From positions 1 to 29,580 of the IMG/VR virus record IMGVR_UViG_3300030012_000605: a stretch of 29,580 bases of DNA. One strand, given 5' to 3'. Positions within the stretch are counted from its first letter, which is position 1; every line of letters starts with the position of its first letter. This DNA comes from a virus. The position numbers and the translations under genes were made by a program. The notes beneath the pieces were generated by a model that saw only the letters and a list, made by a program, of their open reading frames with translations, was not told the DNA's origin and ran no database searches. This document shows positions 1-29,580 of this stretch, piece by piece.

Positions 1-1796
1 TAGATAATTCAGGAAACGAAGCAGAAACACTTTTATTTGGATCAAATTATTATCTAAATGGCGATGTAAAAATATTTTCTAATTTACAATCAGGAACCAT
101 AGCCAACTTTAATAACATACCGCAAATATATTTTGGAAGATTAGAATCTTTAGATCATGATGATGCTTCGGTAACGCTTACCATAGTTGCTAAAAGACCA
201 TGGGACAACATAGTGATTCCGAATACATACTCAAATGAAAAAGTGCTAGCACCTTTAGTGTATGGAAACTATACTGGAAATGATTCTGCTTTTCCGAAAA
301 CAGGAACTGATAATTGGTATCCAGCCCCATTTACTAATAGCGATTCCAATGGTGCAAATTATGTAACTGGCACAACAGCAGCTACTTCTTTGAACCCTTC
401 TAAATATTTAAAAAATTATGATGGGTTTGTGCCTTACTTTGGGAACCCTTCGAATACAAGAACAGTGTCTGGTGTTGAGGTGGTCGAAATAGATCAAAGA
501 GGTTTGTACACTACTCAGCTTTCGCCAAATGCAAACTCACAAACTTCATCTGGATCTGACATTACTGAAACAAACATGTCTAATATTTACGACCAAGATG
601 AATCGACTTTTGGAACTGTTTCGATTAATGCAATTTTAGGAGGCTCTGGTTCAGTAAATCAAACTCATGTTGAGGCTTTTACTATTCCTCAAACTGGTGA
701 AGATTCTTTAATAAATCTAAAATATCAAGTTACTCAACTTAACCAAACTGGAACTATGTCTAATGGTGCGGTGCAAATACAAATACAAACTTCTGGCGGT
801 AACTCATCAACTGTAACTAAAACTGCAGTAATGGGTTCAGCAGCCACTTTACAATTTTCAGTAAGTTCTGCTGTAACAACTATTAGCGTTAGTTTACAAT
901 TTACAGGTAGTGCTAGTGGCTCTGGGGCTTTATCAATGGATGTAAAATTATTTGAATTATTCGCACCAGAAAATAAATCTGATGATGAAGTAGATGTTGT
1001 ATATGTTGAAGCAGATGGATTTCCAGCTAATTCTTCTTGGAACTCAAGTAGCTCTGCGTTAACAGATCTTCACGATTTTCATAGAGATATATGTCACAGA
1101 TTTTTAGGCTTAACAGATACGCCAGTTGGATATTCAGATTTAAATAGTGCTAGAAACTGGCAAGGCAGAATATGGGTTTTAGAACAAATGCCAATCAAAA
1201 CATTATTAGATAAAATTGCTTTTGAAGGTGCGTTCGTTTATACATACTCAGCAGCTGGTGTATTAAAGTATATACATGTAAAAAATACATATAGTTCAGC
1301 TGATCATTCTTTGGATAAAAATGATATTGGAAGCATAGGAATAGGTCATACACCCACTTCAAGTTTAATAACAGATATGACAGTTAATTATAATAAACAC
1401 CCTGCCAAAAATGTTTACAGATCTCAAGCAACAGCTACCGATAGCACAACAAGATCAAATTATAATTTATCAAGCGGTGAAGGAAAATATACTTTTAATC
1501 TAGATTATTTAACAACTGGACAAGGGGCTGATATTGATGTAAGTGATGACGATCCAAACGATGGCTTTATAAATTATTATGGAAATTTAAGATTACAACC
1601 AAGGGTTTTAATAAAAGCAGATATAGTTAACCCTGCACACTTTGATATGGAATTAGGAGATATTGTTTCTTTCAGCAATATGATTCCAACGAAAGCATTT
1701 AACAAAGCGTTTACTTCAAGATTTTTTATGGTAACATCTTTGAGTAGAAGTTCAGGAAAATTAAATGCAGAATTTTTAGATGTTACACCACTTTAG
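1..1796 (+). CDS. Tail tip / baseplate hub-like protein, 3' part of a gene split by the window ends
   Basis: The reading frame is open from the first bases and continues in frame from the gene that starts at 29258, so the full protein is 672 residues once the circle is closed. The GTG at 213 is internal, because the codons before it continue the same protein. The N-terminal 150 residues and the C-terminal stretch (motif MELGDIVSFSN near the end) are mostly beta and resemble hub or tail-tip proteins that follow the tape measure gene in siphoviruses. The middle, about residues 180-400, is rich in Ser, Thr, Asn and Gly. The tape measure lies immediately upstream and a short tail protein follows after 8 bases. 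The tail assignment is firm from context; the exact hub role is inferred. Confidence 0.7.
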   Translation, partial: DNSGNEAETLLFGSNYYLNGDVKIFSNLQSGTIANFNNIPQIYFGRLESLDHDDASVTLTIVAKRPWDNIVIPNTYSNEKVLAPLVYGNYTGNDSAFPKTGTDNWYPAPFTNSDSNGANYVTGTTAATSLNPSKYLKNYDGFVPYFGNPSNTRTVSGVEVVEIDQRGLYTTQLSPNANSQTSSGSDITETNMSNIYDQDESTFGTVSINAILGGSGSVNQTHVEAFTIPQTGEDSLINLKYQVTQLNQTGTMSNGAVQIQIQTSGGNSSTVTKTAVMGSAATLQFSVSSAVTTISVSLQFTGSASGSGALSMDVKLFELFAPENKSDDEVDVVYVEADGFPANSSWNSSSSALTDLHDFHRDICHRFLGLTDTPVGYSDLNSARNWQGRIWVLEQMPIKTLLDKIAFEGAFVYTYSAAGVLKYIHVKNTYSSADHSLDKNDIGSIGIGHTPTSSLITDMTVNYNKHPAKNVYRSQATATDSTTRSNYNLSSGEGKYTFNLDYLTTGQGADIDVSDDDPNDGFINYYGNLRLQPRVLIKADIVNPAHFDMELGDIVSFSNMIPTKAFNKAFTSRFFMVTSLSRSSGKLNAEFLDVTPL

Positions 1797-6311: not shown

Positions 6312-6620
6312 ATGACAGAAAAAAAATATCTAAATAATTTAGTAATAAAAGAACAAAGCGGTGAATATGGCAGTTTTTTTAAATTATGGATTCCAGATTT
6401 ACAAGAATTTATTTCAGAATTATCTAGCATGGAAAAAGAAAATTCAGTAAATTTAATAATGTCAAAAAGAAAAGAAAAAAGCAAAGGAGGGGTTACACAT
6501 TACACTTACTTAGATACATGGGAACCTAATAAGAATAATGAAACTCAAAACAACTCGATTACACCTGAACAAGTTCAAGATATTTTTTCAAAAGATTTAG
6601 ATCCAGATGAGCCATTCTAA
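6312..6620 (+). CDS. Putative single-stranded DNA-binding protein
   Basis: The 102-residue protein starts behind AAAGGAAA. The N-terminal 75 residues are beta-rich (LNNLVIKEQSGEYGSFFKLWI, then VNLIMSKR and YTYLDTWEP), consistent with a small OB fold. The tail is acidic and ends DPDEPF (residues 97-102), closely resembling the DDDIPF tip by which bacterial SSB recruits replication partners. It sits among replication genes and directly before the modification cassette. The assignment rests on the tip, size and context, and a structure-based search would settle it. Confidence 0.5.
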   Translation: MTEKKYLNNLVIKEQSGEYGSFFKLWIPDLQEFISELSSMEKENSVNLIMSKRKEKSKGGVTHYTYLDTWEPNKNNETQNNSITPEQVQDIFSKDLDPDEPF

Positions 6621-6838
6621 TGATTGAACAAGAAACATTATTTGATATGTCACCAGATGAGAACAAAGAAATGATAGAAGATACTGAAATAGAGTGGTTA
6701 ATTTTATACTTTAAAGATAATAAAAAGAAAAAATTAACTTTGAATATTGAAAAGCTATTAAGCGTTTATGATTTAGATAATCACTCAGATCTTGTTTATA
6801 AATTAGTAGAGGAAAAAATTGAAAAAATTAGTAGCTGA
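6620..6838 (+). CDS. Small acidic protein with N-terminal sliding-clamp-type motif
   Basis: The start overlaps the SSB-like gene stop (TAATG). The 72-residue, strongly acidic protein opens MIEQETLFDMS. QETLF at residues 4-8 fits the bacterial clamp-binding pentapeptide (Gln at 1, Leu at 4, Phe at 5), and nearly the same sequence closes both glycosyltransferases downstream. The coding DNA for it (6629-6649) is nearly identical to 9268-9288. The rest is helical with a KKKK patch. It may tether or compete for the host clamp; this is inferred. Confidence 0.55.
   Translation: MIEQETLFDMSPDENKEMIEDTEIEWLILYFKDNKKKKLTLNIEKLLSVYDLDNHSDLVYKLVEEKIEKISS
6629..6649 (+). repeat. Direct repeat copy 1 bounding the modification cassette
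   Basis: This copy reads CAAGAAACATTATTT followed by GATATG. It matches 9268-9288 at 20 of 21 positions, and its first 15 bases match 8483-8497 exactly. It encodes QETLFDM near the start of the 72-residue protein, while the other copies encode the ends of the two glycosyltransferases. It may be selected as a protein motif, may mark duplication or insertion of the cassette, or both. Confidence 0.55.
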
Positions 6839-7724
6839 ATATTATCTTACAGAAAAAGAAACTGAAAGATTGCAAGGCACTTTTATAAACGAAAGTCATT
6901 ACAATCAAATTATTGATTACGATTGCGATTGTTACACTAGCAATGGTCAACCGCTTTTCTTTTTTAGAAAAAATTATATTGATTATAATGTACTTGAAGA
7001 TGCTTATGAGGCTATGCATACAGCAGCTACCCCCACAAATAACAGAGGTGCTGCAAGTGGCGGTGAAAGAAGAAATGCTATTTTATTAAGCGGTAAAAAA
7101 AGCAAACAAGATTATATCTTTGACCCAGAAACAAATAAAAGAAAAAATATTTTAAGCGGTATTGCTGGATATTTTGACAGATCTGCTCATTATGATTTTT
7201 GCAGAACAACTGCTTTTAACAAAAATAATTTAGATAAATTCGAAAAGGCAATGCCACTTATAAGAACTGTTGATAGAGGGTTTAAAGAATTAGTTCCTGA
7301 TAGATACAAAAGGCAACTAGCAATGGCAAAAGGAACGCATCCTAATTATGTAATAAAAGATACAGCATTTACAACAATCACTGTAAACAAAGATTTTAGA
7401 ACCGCTATTCATACTGACGATGGTGATTACAAATATGGTTTCGGTAACCTAGTTGCGTATTGTAAAGATATTGAACCCACTTATTTTGTTATGCCTAGAT
7501 TTAAAGTAGCTATCGATTTAAGAAATTGCGATCTGCTTTTAGCAGACGTTCATCAATATCATGGAAACTCACCTATAATAAAAAAATCTGAAGATGCTGT
7601 AAGGCTTTCTTTTGTAATGTATTATAGGGAAAAAATGATCAGATGTATGAGCCCAAGTAAAGAATTAAAAAGAATACAAATGAATCAAAGGAGGGTATCA
7701 ATGGAGCATGCAGGATTGATATGA
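6819..7724 (+). CDS. TET/JBP-family Fe(II)/2-oxoglutarate DNA base dioxygenase
   Basis: This enzyme is expected to hydroxylate the methyl group of thymine or 5-methylcytosine in DNA, using Fe(II), oxygen and 2-oxoglutarate. In the 301-residue product the iron triad is His198, Asp200 (HTD) and His248 (in QYHGN), with Arg262 in VRLSFVMYYREKM as the 2-oxoglutarate contact. The H-x-D to H spacing and the RxSxVxYYRExM ending are characteristic of TET/JBP enzymes, as is the NRGAASG element at 75-81. The TTG start follows an AGAGG site and overlaps the previous gene. The stop overlaps the glycosyltransferase start (ATGA). No C5-methyltransferase was found in the genome, so thymine or host-methylated cytosine is the likely substrate. 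Confidence 0.8.
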   Translation: MKKLVAEYYLTEKETERLQGTFINESHYNQIIDYDCDCYTSNGQPLFFFRKNYIDYNVLEDAYEAMHTAATPTNNRGAASGGERRNAILLSGKKSKQDYIFDPETNKRKNILSGIAGYFDRSAHYDFCRTTAFNKNNLDKFEKAMPLIRTVDRGFKELVPDRYKRQLAMAKGTHPNYVIKDTAFTTITVNKDFRTAIHTDDGDYKYGFGNLVAYCKDIEPTYFVMPRFKVAIDLRNCDLLLADVHQYHGNSPIIKKSEDAVRLSFVMYYREKMIRCMSPSKELKRIQMNQRRVSMEHAGLI

Positions 7725-8503
7725 ATTATAAAATCGCTATCCCATCATACAAAAGAGAACAAACAATAAAAAATAAAACATTAAAACTTTTAGAATCATT
7801 TAAAATAGATCCTAAAAAAATTACTATTTTTGTTGCAGATTCTGATGAATTATATAAATATAAAAAATCATTAGAAAATACTCCGTATGAGGAAAATATT
7901 GTTCAAGGCGTTCTTACTATCGGTGAGCAAAGAAACTTTATTGAAGGGTATTATAATGAGGGTGAAAAGGTAATGATGTTTGATGACGACATTACTGGAA
8001 TTAAAAAAAAGAAAGATCAAGATTTAATTGACATTTTAGATCTTGAAAAAGAAATTATTTTTCGTGGTTTTAATGAAGCTGAAAAATTAGGTTCAAAATG
8101 TTTCGGAATATATGCAGCTGCTAATGCTTATTTTATGAAAGATCGTGTCTACTCAAAACTTTGTTACATTATAGCATCTATGTTTGGTGTAATTATAGAA
8201 AAAAATAATTTTTTAAAAAGAGTTACGAATCATGGTGAAGATTACGAATACAGCATAAGACAATATATTCATAATGGAGTTTTATGCAGATTAGATAATT
8301 ATACTGTCATAAGCAATTATTATAAAGAAGAAGGTGGATTGCAGGCTTTTAGAACTAAAGATTATGTAAGAGAATCTATTGAAAAAATACAAGATATGTT
8401 CCCAGAATATTGTAAAATGTATATAAGAAAGTCAACTGGATTTGCAGAGTTAAGGTTGAAAGATAATGCAGGCAATAAAAATCAAGAAACATTATTTTCA
8501 TGA
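7721..8503 (+). CDS. TET-associated glycosyltransferase (TAGT-like), copy 1
   Basis: This GT-A-type protein of 260 residues starts YKIAIPSYKR, has the metal/nucleotide-sugar acidic motif FDDD at 87-90, and GEDYEYSIR at 172-180 as a likely catalytic acidic region, followed by EGGLQAF. These features and adjacency to a TET/JBP enzyme match the glycosyltransferases described with such dioxygenases, which put sugar on hydroxymethylated bases in DNA. It is translationally coupled on both sides by ATGA overlaps. The C-terminal residues QETLF (255-259) fit a sliding-clamp binding peptide. The sugar donor cannot be told from sequence. Confidence 0.75.
   Translation: MNYKIAIPSYKREQTIKNKTLKLLESFKIDPKKITIFVADSDELYKYKKSLENTPYEENIVQGVLTIGEQRNFIEGYYNEGEKVMMFDDDITGIKKKKDQDLIDILDLEKEIIFRGFNEAEKLGSKCFGIYAAANAYFMKDRVYSKLCYIIASMFGVIIEKNNFLKRVTNHGEDYEYSIRQYIHNGVLCRLDNYTVISNYYKEEGGLQAFRTKDYVRESIEKIQDMFPEYCKMYIRKSTGFAELRLKDNAGNKNQETLFS
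8483..8497 (+). repeat. Direct repeat copy 2 (15 bases)
   Basis: CAAGAAACATTATTT at the end of the first glycosyltransferase gene is identical to the first 15 bases of the copy at 6629 and differs at one position from the copy at 9268. It encodes the QETLF ending. The following bases diverge. Confidence 0.5.
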
Positions 8504-9294
8504 TTGATTATAAAATAGCTATTCCAACTTACAAAAGAAGTGATCTGATTGAGGAATATTGTTTCAAACATCTAAAAGAATCCAATATTAATTTTTCTAA
8601 AATACATTTATTTATACAAAGCAAAAAAGATATGGATCTTTATCGCAAATATGAAAAAAAATATTCTTTAAAATTAATTTATTGTTCTACAAAAAATATA
8701 AATGAAACAAGAAATTTTATAAGAAATTATTTTAAAGAAAATGATTTTATTGTATCTATTGACGACACTTTTAATGGAATTAATAAATTGAATAATGATA
8801 AATTAGAAAAATTTATTGATATTGATGGCTTATGTAAAGATGCCTATAAACAAATGATCAAAAATAATACTAAATTATTTGGTATAAATATGGTGAGCAA
8901 CCCTTTTTTTATGAAGGATAAAATAAGCACAAGAAATGGTGCAATATCAGCTAAATTTTATGGATACATAAACGATAAAGATAAATTTTTACAACCGATA
9001 GCTCCTACTGGATTGGTTGAGGATATAGAACTTGCAATTAGACATTATATAAAATTTGGAAAAATTGTTAGATATATGGGACATACTTTTAATAATGTTA
9101 AATATTTTGAAATTGAAGGAGGAATACAAGCAAGAATGTCAAAAGAAGAAAGAAGAAAACTTAATGATTTAGGAAATAAAGAATTATGTAAAATGTTTCC
9201 AGATTATGTAGTTTTGAAAAAAAATGGTTTTGGGCTTAGGCTCAAACAAAAATATATTAATAAAAATCAAAAAACATTATTTGATATGATATAA
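8500..9294 (+). CDS. TET-associated glycosyltransferase (TAGT-like), copy 2
   Basis: A 264-residue paralogue of the gene before it, sharing YKIAIPxYKR, RNFI, DDxxxGI, FxMKD, ED.E..IR.YI, EGGxQA and the NKNQxTLF ending, yet clearly diverged in between. The acidic motif is IDDT (87-90) instead of FDDD, so metal or donor use may differ, while VED (173-175) is kept. It could act on a different site, add a second sugar to the first, or be a regulatory partner. The C-terminus carries QKTLF (257-261), again fitting the clamp-binding pentapeptide. The start overlaps the previous stop. Confidence 0.72.
   Translation: MIDYKIAIPTYKRSDLIEEYCFKHLKESNINFSKIHLFIQSKKDMDLYRKYEKKYSLKLIYCSTKNINETRNFIRNYFKENDFIVSIDDTFNGINKLNNDKLEKFIDIDGLCKDAYKQMIKNNTKLFGINMVSNPFFMKDKISTRNGAISAKFYGYINDKDKFLQPIAPTGLVEDIELAIRHYIKFGKIVRYMGHTFNNVKYFEIEGGIQARMSKEERRKLNDLGNKELCKMFPDYVVLKKNGFGLRLKQKYINKNQKTLFDMI
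9268..9288 (+). repeat. Direct repeat copy 3 closing the modification cassette
   Basis: This copy matches 6629-6649 except for one A/G difference and encodes the QKTLFDM ending of the second glycosyltransferase. Together the outer copies frame the dioxygenase and both glycosyltransferases. Confidence 0.55.
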
Positions 9295-12960: not shown

Positions 12961-14265
12961 ATGATCGTTGAAAATAAAGATTTAATAAGAAGTTCATTAA
13001 AAGAATACTTATCAGATGTATCCAAAGAAAATGTAGAAGAGCGTTACAGATTCCTGTCTTATTACGAAGGAATGCAAAACGAAATGGAAAATGATTTGAG
13101 TAAATACTTTCCATTAAAAAATCTAGAAGTTCCATACATTACGCAATCTATTACATCCAAGTTAATTAACGCAAGGGCAATAGGATATAAAAACCCACCT
13201 GTAAGAACTAATGAAGATTACTTAGAAAGCGTTGTTGATTTGGATCAGACTATGATTACTGCTGAAAGGTTAACATACTTATTAGGTTCACACCTTTTAA
13301 GATCTAGATATAATGAACAAGAACAAAAGATTGAATATGACCAGATAATTGAGTTCGAACCTATATTTGAACCGAGATCTAGAATGCCTGTTGGGTATAT
13401 TTATCCAATTTATAATCATGGTCAAACTAAAGATATGAAAGTAGTTTATGCATACTGGTCGAACGATGAGCACTTTTTAATAGATCAAAATGGTAATATC
13501 GAATCAGTAAACGAAGGCAACGTCAACCCATATGGAATACTGCCTTTTACAATATGCCATAGGCACCCTTATACAACTGATTTTATGCGTAATGGTGCTA
13601 CCGATATTATAAACGCAAATTTAATGATAAACGTTTTAATGACCGAACTTGGATTGGCTATGCGATTACAAGCGTTAGGTCAACCAGTAATTTCAGGAAT
13701 AGATAATGCGAACAAAGTTTCACTTGGTGTTGATAAACCTATGGTATTGCCTGAAGGGGCATCTTTCAGCTTTGTATCTCCTGGTGGTGATATTGATCAA
13801 TATATTAATGCCATACGCTTTTATGTTGACTCAGTTGCTTATAATAACAATCTCAAGGTTAAATGGTCAGTAGGTCGTGAATCTTTTATAAGTGGCGAAG
13901 CATTGAAAATGGCTGAGATAGATTTAACAGAAGCAGTTATGGGCGATTATCAAATGATTTGGCGTGGCGTTGAACAAAGAAGGTTTAATGTCGATCGCAG
14001 AATTTTAGAAGTACATAACAAAAGAATTAGCGATGAATATTCAGTTGATTTTAGTGAACCTAGATTCCCATTAACAGCAGACGAAGAAAGAAAACAATGG
14101 GATTGGGAATGGGCAAATGGATTGAGCCAACCTAAAGATTGGATTAAAAAATATAATCCAGATATGACTGAAGAAGAAGTAGAAGAAATGATGGAAGAAA
14201 TGAAACCAGAACAACCAGAGCAACCGCAACAAAGCGGTTTATTAGCTCAAGCATTAGGTAGTTAA
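12961..14265 (+). CDS. Portal protein
   Basis: The 434-residue protein follows the large terminase by six bases. The N-terminal region (RYRFLSYYEGMQNEMENDL, then YFPLKNLEVPYITQSITSKLINARAIGYKNPP) and the long-helix region (FYVDSVAYNNNLKVKWSVGRESFISGEALKM) match SPP1-type portals, and the C-terminus is acidic and Gln/Pro-rich. Twelve copies form the DNA channel at one head vertex and dock the terminase. It overlaps the head morphogenesis gene by one base (TAATG). Confidence 0.85.
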   Translation: MIVENKDLIRSSLKEYLSDVSKENVEERYRFLSYYEGMQNEMENDLSKYFPLKNLEVPYITQSITSKLINARAIGYKNPPVRTNEDYLESVVDLDQTMITAERLTYLLGSHLLRSRYNEQEQKIEYDQIIEFEPIFEPRSRMPVGYIYPIYNHGQTKDMKVVYAYWSNDEHFLIDQNGNIESVNEGNVNPYGILPFTICHRHPYTTDFMRNGATDIINANLMINVLMTELGLAMRLQALGQPVISGIDNANKVSLGVDKPMVLPEGASFSFVSPGGDIDQYINAIRFYVDSVAYNNNLKVKWSVGRESFISGEALKMAEIDLTEAVMGDYQMIWRGVEQRRFNVDRRILEVHNKRISDEYSVDFSEPRFPLTADEERKQWDWEWANGLSQPKDWIKKYNPDMTEEEVEEMMEEMKPEQPEQPQQSGLLAQALGS

Positions 14266-27445: not shown

Positions 27446-29258
27446 AGTATTTGACATTATATTTCGTGCAAGAGGTGCAGGAAAAGCTAAAAGGGATGCT
27501 GAGGATCTTGATAAAAGTTTTGATAAATTAGCAGAATCTGCTAAAGCTGCAGCACTAGGTTTTGTTTCATTTCAAACTGCACAAAGGGGCATTGAGATGG
27601 CAAGGCTTGCGGCACAAACTGAAACAGTGCGTAGAACTTTTGGCAACTTAGCTAAAGAGCCAGATAAAATGTTGCAATCTATGAAGAAAGCAACTGCTGG
27701 AACTATTGCTGAAATGGAACTAATGCAAAAATTTAATGAAGCATCTTTATTAGGTTTGCCTTTAGATCGTTTCGATGAAATGTTGGAAATAGCCAGAGGT
27801 GCAGCCCAAGCCACTGGGCAATCTATGGACTTTATGTTAAATAGTATCGTAGTTGCGTTAGGTAGGCAATCTAAATTAATGCTTGACAACTTGGGTATTA
27901 TGATCGATACAAAAGCAGCCAATGAAGAGTTTGCTGTTTCCATAGGCAAAACAGCAGATAAATTAACCGATCAAGAAAAAAAGCAAGCATTTGTAAATAA
28001 AGCATTATCCATTGGTAATGAAAACCTAGCTAGAATGGGCGGAGTTACAGAATCAAGCATTGATAGTTTTGCATCTTTAACCGCTACATTTGAAGATCTT
28101 CAAGTGTCTATCGGTAAAGAACTGCTTCCAGTCGTAATTCCTTTACTAAAAAACTTTAACGATTTTTTAAGGGTGTTAGATCCGCAAAGGGTTTTAACAT
28201 ATGGTGCAGCTATTACAACTGTTGCTGGTGCATTCGGAATATATAAAACTGCAGTAATATTAGCTGCAGGTGCAACCAAATCTTTTCGTGCAGCTTTAAT
28301 TAAATCAGGTTTCGGCATAGCTGTTGTTGGTCTTGGTGAATTAGTAAACGCTTTAATGAATCACAATGAAGCGGTAAAAGAAAACGAAAGAAGTCAAAAG
28401 TCATTAACCGATAAACTGCAAAATAAATTAGCGAAAGAATATGAACAACTGGAAGTTTTACAACAACAACTTATAGAAGAAGAAAAGAAAAATAAAACAT
28501 TTTTTAACCAAGAAGAAAATATTCAAAAGCTAATTAACCAACAACAACAAAAGATTGATTTGACCATAAGAGATCTGCAAGCAGAGGGTTTAAGAATATC
28601 TAAATTAAACGAAGAAAATGAAGCCATAGCAAACCTTACAAGCACTATGGAAGCAATGCCAGATGTAAGTATTTTTAGTGAAGAAGATGTCGAAGCAATT
28701 GATGGAATCGTTGTTGCTACAGATGAAGCAGCAAAATCTATGCAAAAAATGGCAGAAGATCAAACTGCCCTAGCAAATAAACAAATAGAATCACAAAAAC
28801 AACAAAGGCAATCTTTACAAGAAACTGCCAAAGCTGCAGCATTAAATGCTAATAGTGCAGAAGATGCTATGGAAAGGGTGGTGCGTGCAGCATTTATGGA
28901 GGCTTTAGCAAAGCAAATATCCAAGATTATTACAAAAGTTCCATTTCCTTTTAACTTGGCAGTTGCAGCTGGTGCAGGCGGTGCTTTATCTGGGTTGTTT
29001 GATCAAGGTATGGCTCAAGTAAAAAAATTAAAATTTGCTCAATATGGAATGGATGAAATGGTTTCTCAACCAACTTTAATAGTTGCAGGTGAAGCTGGAC
29101 CAGAGCGTGTTAATATTACCCCTGCTACAAGACCATCATCTGAGCAAGGTTCTGGCGGTATGACGATAAATTTTAATGGACCAGTTACCAATCGTGAGTT
29201 TGTACGTGATACGATAATTCCAGAAATAGATCGTGTTCAAAAACTAGGATTAGCATAA
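27435..29258 (+). CDS. Tail tape measure protein
   Basis: The 607-residue protein begins FDIIFRARGAGKAKRDAEDLDKS, a common opening of tape measure proteins. It has long helices, hydrophobic spans near 255-285 (TYGAAITTVAGAFGIYKTAV) and near 505-525 (FNLAVAAGAGGALSGLF), a Gln/Glu coiled coil at about 325-400, and ends with the AGEAGPERVNITPATRP-type segment typical of the family. It sets tail length; at roughly 1.5 angstrom per residue a tail near 90 nm would be expected. No lytic domain is visible. Confidence 0.9.
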   Translation: MASRVFDIIFRARGAGKAKRDAEDLDKSFDKLAESAKAAALGFVSFQTAQRGIEMARLAAQTETVRRTFGNLAKEPDKMLQSMKKATAGTIAEMELMQKFNEASLLGLPLDRFDEMLEIARGAAQATGQSMDFMLNSIVVALGRQSKLMLDNLGIMIDTKAANEEFAVSIGKTADKLTDQEKKQAFVNKALSIGNENLARMGGVTESSIDSFASLTATFEDLQVSIGKELLPVVIPLLKNFNDFLRVLDPQRVLTYGAAITTVAGAFGIYKTAVILAAGATKSFRAALIKSGFGIAVVGLGELVNALMNHNEAVKENERSQKSLTDKLQNKLAKEYEQLEVLQQQLIEEEKKNKTFFNQEENIQKLINQQQQKIDLTIRDLQAEGLRISKLNEENEAIANLTSTMEAMPDVSIFSEEDVEAIDGIVVATDEAAKSMQKMAEDQTALANKQIESQKQQRQSLQETAKAAALNANSAEDAMERVVRAAFMEALAKQISKIITKVPFPFNLAVAAGAGGALSGLFDQGMAQVKKLKFAQYGMDEMVSQPTLIVAGEAGPERVNITPATRPSSEQGSGGMTINFNGPVTNREFVRDTIIPEIDRVQKLGLA

Positions 29259-29580
29259 TGGCATTAAGTCAAGGTACATGGTCACCTACTTCAGGTATGC
29301 GAGAAAACTGGTTGGTGCAAGTTTACAAAACAGATGAATCTGCTTTTCAAGCGTATTCTTTCTTTGATCAAACTATAAATTCAATCGCATATAATGGAAT
29401 AATTTTAAACAATCCGACGATACGTGAAAGCATAGATTTGTTTAATTCAAGATCTAGAATTTCTAATTTATCAATTACTTTGGATAATTCAGGAAACGAA
29501 GCAGAAACACTTTTATTTGGATCAAATTATTATCTAAATGGCGATGTAAAAATATTTTCTAATTTACAATCAGGAACCAT
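29258..29580 (+). CDS. Tail tip / hub-like protein, 5' part (continues at window start)
   Basis: The ATG overlaps the tape measure stop (TAATG). The first 107 codons are in the window and the frame continues at position 101 after the repeated 100 bases, giving a 672-residue protein that ends at 1796. It begins MALSQGTWSPTSGMRENWLV and has the beta-rich character of N-terminal tail-tip domains. The split is an artefact of where the circle was opened. Confidence 0.75.
   Translation, partial: MALSQGTWSPTSGMRENWLVQVYKTDESAFQAYSFFDQTINSIAYNGIILNNPTIRESIDLFNSRSRISNLSITLDNSGNEAETLLFGSNYYLNGDVKIFSNLQSGT
29481..29580 (+). repeat. Terminal overlap identical to positions 1-100 except one base
   Basis: The last 100 bases equal the first 100 except position 29482 (G) against position 2 (A). 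A tail gene reads across the overlap in frame. This is most simply a circular assembly, either from a circularly permuted or a circular genome; it is not evidence of the physical ends. The mismatch changes a Leu codon TTG to TTA. Confidence 0.85.

Follow-up and report, generated by a model that had tools for sequence, protein, structure and literature searches.

A TET/JBP dioxygenase–TAGT glycosyltransferase module in a complete 29.5-kb phage genome, a candidate route to glycosylated thymine

Characterised phage TETs are 5-methylcytosine (5mC) oxygenases encoded in clusters with a C5-methyltransferase, as Burke et al. reportedly described in 2021, and to our knowledge all phage TETs that have been biochemically characterised act on 5mC. 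In clusters of the Melnitz type, a Tet_JBP protein with invariant HxD..H..R residues would act post-replicatively, usually beside a C5-methyltransferase, with glycosyltransferases nearby in 9/28 of the loci sampled here. In trypanosomatids, base J is made by an oxygenase of the same Pfam family (JBP1/2) followed by glycosyl transfer (base J glucosyltransferase), a route that needs no methyltransferase; such a pathway was unreported in phage DNA as of 2019 (PMC6449724). The locus described here lies in the IMG/VR record IMGVR_UViG_3300030012_000605, whose full stretch of 29,580 nucleotides was analysed and is referred to as the window. It shares the HxD..H..R residues and the predicted post-replicative action with the Melnitz type, but differs in having no C5-methyltransferase and in carrying Arg instead of Asp at TET position 270. 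It resembles the base J pathway in joining an oxygenase of that Pfam family to predicted glycosyl transfer with no methyltransferase, and activity on thymine is a prediction. The module and the gene before it comprise the following features:

6620..6838, plus strand: 72-aa gene that shares 20 bases with the start of the TET, kept upstream of the TET in the nearest relatives
6819..7724, plus strand: TET/JBP-family Fe(II)/2-oxoglutarate (2OG) dioxygenase by family and predicted fold, 301 aa, TTG start (Pfam, PHROG, alignments, AF2, Foldseek)
7721..8503, plus strand: TAGT1, predicted GT-A glycosyltransferase, 260 aa (Pfam, PHROG, alignment, AF2, Foldseek, relatives)
8500..9294, plus strand: TAGT2, putative divergent second TAGT paralogue, 264 aa (PF20691 near cut-off; 35% identical to TAGT1)

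The three enzyme ORFs lie exactly where the first-pass annotation had placed them. ORF 6819-7724 matched Pfam Tet_JBP (PF12851) over the full profile (2-164) with 64.4 bits (E 9e-18, cut-off 34.9) and PHROG 24024 with 286.6 bits, and thus falls inside the family to which it had been assigned. The iron ligands H198, D200 and H248 and the 2OG-binding R262 were invariant in alignments of relatives with 27 and 35 rows, as anticipated, except that R262 sits in DAVRLSF and the Arg of the YYREKM context formerly equated with it is R270. The AlphaFold (AF2) model, built with 35 sequences as input (mean pLDDT 94.1, pTM 0.89), showed a predicted TET-like double-stranded beta-helix fold, and its top PDB matches in Foldseek were human TET2, Coprinopsis CcTet and Naegleria NgTet1 (E 4e-13 to 3e-11), while a PDB sequence search with one protein as query returned no match. 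By family and predicted fold, the ORF is a Tet_JBP dioxygenase.

TAGT1, directly downstream of the TET, matched Pfam PF20691 (47.8 bits, E 2e-12, cut-off 27.5) and the PHROG of beta-glucosyl-HMC-alpha-glucosyltransferase (E 1e-15). It keeps D88-D89-D90 and the invariant E173-D174 in the alignment, its AF2 model is of the GT-A type (pLDDT 91.7), and the best Foldseek matches of this model were GT-A enzymes, RmlT and TarS among them; TAGT1 is predicted to transfer the first sugar to the hydroxymethyl base. TAGT2 reached 27.4 bits against PF20691, and 27.8 bits in another search, which is around the cut-off of 27.5 and covers part of the profile (1-120). Its residues 88-90 are DDT, the third Asp being gone, with D89 and the ED pair retained, and because DDT stands in place of DDD, TAGT2 may add a second sugar or may be catalytically altered or inactive. 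No close TAGT2 relatives were confirmed in IMG/VR, and the tandem TAGT pair of one relative (L155) retains DDD. The reading frames of the TET, TAGT1 and TAGT2 are joined by 4-base ATGA stop/start overlaps, in line with a coupled operon. Of the two coupled GT-A/TAGT proteins originally described, TAGT1 and the coupling are clear, and TAGT2 is marginal in Pfam. Moreover, 48 TAGT1 relatives at 55-72% identity occurred in phages whose TETs differ greatly, and in Mycobacterium phage Indlovu a TAGT of the same Pfam family adjoins a queuine tRNA-ribosyltransferase with no TET there, so that a TAGT by itself does not name its acceptor. In the Indlovu locus (L366, 1-3611), genes for ParB, queuine tRNA-ribosyltransferase, TAGT and a PIG-L deacetylase stand in a row, possibly for a glycosylated 7-deazaguanine.

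The ends of the window carry a direct repeat:

3..100, plus strand: left copy of the 98-bp terminal direct repeat (sequence identity to the right copy)
29483..29580, plus strand: right copy of the repeat (tail gene frame runs on through the join)

Closing the circle at this repeat gives a genome of ~29,480 bp, in which ORF 213-1796 and the sequence from near 29258 form a single long tail-gene frame. The 29.5-kb phage genome is complete, upholding the earlier description of a genome under 30 kb; the possibility that the contig is a genome fragment was ruled out by the terminal repeat together with the tail gene reading across the join. On the left, two stray bases mask the exact end match, and the IMG/VR record is typed linear despite the repeat. 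Other phage genes recognised in the window were those for terminase, major head, tape-measure, tail-fibre and HNH/Rap-like proteins; no DNA polymerase was recognised, and a search of the window for riboswitches and structured RNAs found none. The closest relative (L002) is collinear with the window over most of its own genes. Terminase matches (~40%) came from phages of many hosts, none of 50,697 phage records matched the portal protein (12961-14265) at E 1e-5, and the phage group to which the structural module belongs is apparently uncultured. A scan of bacterial genomes yielded four MAG contigs only. The CpG dinucleotide is mildly depleted in the window (observed/expected 0.66) and TpG is enriched (1.19).

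In this complete genome, Pfam searches detected no C5-methyltransferase (PF00145), no homologue of thymidylate synthase or dCMP hydroxymethylase (PF00303) and no N4/N6 methyltransferase (PF01555), in agreement with the initial reading, which recognised no genes for C5-methylation or hydroxymethyl-nucleotide synthesis. The genome thus has neither the thymidylate-synthase-family hydroxymethylase of pre-replicative pathways (T4, SPO1 type) nor the co-encoded C5-methyltransferase of 5mC-dependent phage TET clusters. Gene neighbourhoods were compared across 231 distinct TETs collected with several seeds, with a single locus kept wherever the C-terminal sequences of TETs were identical and with counts limited to TETs having 2 kb present on both sides. 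The TETs fall into separate groups on the tree and are named here by residue 270. A C5-methyltransferase lay within 2 kb of the TET in 0/75 loci of the R270 class (including the window) and 0/25 of the L270 class, in contrast to 24/28 of the D270 class (Melnitz type), and the corresponding figures in an earlier sample were 0/94, 0/44 and 74/81, respectively; because these are related, non-independent sequences chosen by seed similarity, with a narrow D270 set, what is contrasted here is clades rather than independent events. A TAGT was present within 2 kb in 40/75 R270-class loci, and a glycosyltransferase (GT) stood beside the TET in 25/25 L270-class loci. Searches of whole records detected PF00145 in 7/85. 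One of these records was Melnitz, and the matches in the rest were mostly partial; six contigs of the methyltransferase-free classes had a match, mostly partial, elsewhere in the contig. PF00303 was absent from 37 records (the window and 36 others). Six of six finished genomes with a TET (P12024L, HTVC112P, DLP6, Cr30, S-CBWM1 and Altadena) had no PF00145, and all of these except Caulobacter phage Cr30, which has one, also had no PF00303.

Relatives of the TET were encoded in at least 586 IMG/VR stretches in a scan with ten window-class TETs, and Tet_JBP exceeded its cut-off in 36/36 records sampled via TET or TAGT1 searches. As far as sequence can tell, the window module is one of a large, mostly marine class without a C5-methyltransferase. 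TET homologues also occur in cultured phages, P12024L (35.7 kb) and HTVC112P (32.5 kb) among them, and the expectation that such a module would be unusual in so small a genome did not hold, since cultured phages of 32-36 kb and hundreds of marine contigs have it too. Nonlabens phage P12024L (gp26-gp27) resembles the window in having a TET 42% identical to that of the window with an adjacent TAGT, a small genome and no PF00145 or PF00303, whereas it carries one TAGT and an N4/N6-type methyltransferase (PF01555) in place of two TAGTs and no methyltransferase. The annotated methyltransferase of P12024L was ruled out as a source of 5mC, being of the PF01555 type. Arthrobacter phage Altadena also has an annotated Tet-like protein beside a TAGT and no C5-methyltransferase, although this TET is only 18% identical to that of the window and was missed by Pfam. 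In this laboratory phage, the locus (L367, 2953-6328) encodes ParB, the Tet-like protein, the TAGT and, in addition, a PIG-L deacetylase, which suggests an amino-sugar decoration. In HTVC112P (L012, 8497-9195), an FkbM methyltransferase gene follows right after the TET with no TAGT, so that the hydroxymethyl base is perhaps decorated in another way. The Tet_JBP proteins of DLP6, Cr30 and S-CBWM1 are labelled 'SNF2 DNA repair protein', an annotation error that is spreading.

As for the gene upstream of the TET, the 72-aa product showed 38-54% identity to ORFs immediately upstream of the TET in seven relatives (L002, L003, L004 and L092-L095), a weak iterative match (45 bits) to the ParB-like protein of HTVC112P and no strong Pfam match. 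It may be what is left of the ParB-like gene found ahead of the TET in many relatives, where a ParB-N-domain protein occupies the same place. In addition, ParB adjoins the TET and GT in 25/25 L270-class loci, which suggests that it may be a working partner of the module.

Profile alignment to TET2 paired D203, three residues past the HxD Asp, with N1387, and position 270, eight residues past the 2OG-binding Arg, with H1904, both of which contact the base in TET2; D203 and R270 are accordingly the predicted base-reading positions. Position 270 was Arg in 84/84 window-type and 23/23 T4-like R-class sequences (107/107), Asp in 64/64 sequences of the methyltransferase-linked D270 class and Leu in 11/11 of the L270 class, and position 129 likewise showed Arg versus Asp. 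Position 203 was Asp in the R270 and D270 classes alike, and NgTet1, which prefers 5mC, also has Asp at the matching position. The differences at positions 270 and 129 are consistent with a different substrate but do not name one.

Judged by sequence, the window carries a genuine phage TET-TAGT DNA-decoration module, and we infer that DNA is what it acts on. The TET/JBP oxygenase would hydroxylate the 5-methyl group of a pyrimidine already within phage DNA. The resulting hydroxymethyl base would be glycosylated by TAGT1 and perhaps then by TAGT2, the identity of the sugar and the order of the transferases being presumptive. The bulky glycosylated base would protect against host restriction and other defences aimed at DNA, presumably its biological role. 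On balance, we regard the locus as a translationally coupled post-replicative module whose substrate is probably thymine, ranked above host-made 5mC because genes for a C5-methyltransferase and for a hydroxymethyl-nucleotide synthase are both missing from the phage and from nearly all of its class. Thymine would then be converted to 5-hydroxymethyluracil and to a base-J-like glycosylated thymine. The methyltransferase absence across the class and the R270 versus D270 difference lean toward thymine, short of proof, and the restriction-resistant DNA listed for phage DLP6 speaks for a decoration of the DNA. Counting against this reading are the 5mC activity of the characterised phage TETs, the Asp that both the R270 and D270 classes have at position 203, the PF00145 matches in six contigs of the methyltransferase-free classes and the Indlovu TAGT, which shows that the acceptors of TAGTs vary. 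More tentatively, at somewhat below an even chance, the TETs of both the R270 and L270 classes may be thymine hydroxylases that make glycosylated 5-hydroxymethyluracil together with TAGTs, with residue 270 as the specificity switch. The literature searched yielded no published chemistry on any member of the methyltransferase-free class.

The next reading, in which host methyltransferases or a phage enzyme that escaped recognition supply 5mC, the TET oxidises it and the TAGTs then glycosylate 5hmC, appears unlikely but carries some weight. It would agree with the 5mC activity of the characterised phage TETs and with the methyltransferase-linked class verified here, and Asp203 matches the Asp of that 5mC-linked class. 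It also draws on phage DLP6, which has a homologous TET and TAGT and no C5-methyltransferase and is tabulated as having restriction-resistant DNA (PMC8228603). The enzymes tested on DLP6 include those with T-free sites (SmaI, HaeIII, HpaII and ApaI; PMC5349666), so its resistance leans toward a cytosine modification, which fits more directly than thymine, although the T-modified DNA of phi W-14 resists some T-free sites too (PMC6449724). On the other hand, host C5-methyltransferases occur patchily, whereas hundreds of contigs have the module without encoding one, PF00145 is absent from the six finished cultured phages, and the predicted base-contacting residue differs between the R270 and D270 classes.

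It is improbable, clearly more so than the use of host 5mC, that the enzymes have separate targets, with the TET removing or oxidising a host methyl mark such as N6-methyladenine and the GTs acting on surface glycans or 7-deazaguanine. CcTet can act on N6-methyladenine, and CcTet bound to 6mA DNA was among the top fold matches; the best GT fold matches were teichoic-acid and other polysaccharide enzymes, the Indlovu TAGT occurs with a queuine tRNA-ribosyltransferase, and about half of the R270-class loci lack a TAGT in the flanking 2 kb. However, the 4-base overlaps that couple the genes, the Tet_JBP matches in every record sampled via TET or TAGT1 and the invariable GT beside the TET in the L270 class all argue for a shared target. 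A decaying or inactive module is very improbable, since the TET and TAGT1 frames are complete, both enzymes keep their catalytic residues and both were modelled with high confidence, even if TAGT2 is one acidic residue short and at the Pfam cut-off.

With thymine as the favoured substrate, the biological argument is that a class without a methyltransferase must draw its methyl groups from elsewhere, and thymine is the sole 5-methylpyrimidine always in DNA. The substrate question is directly testable in those finished cultured phages that have the module. If the proposed activity is true, base J would have phage counterparts, which would bear on the origin of the eukaryotic TET/JBP enzymes, and the sequence classes would offer candidate specificity residues as well as new enzymes to read or write modified thymine.
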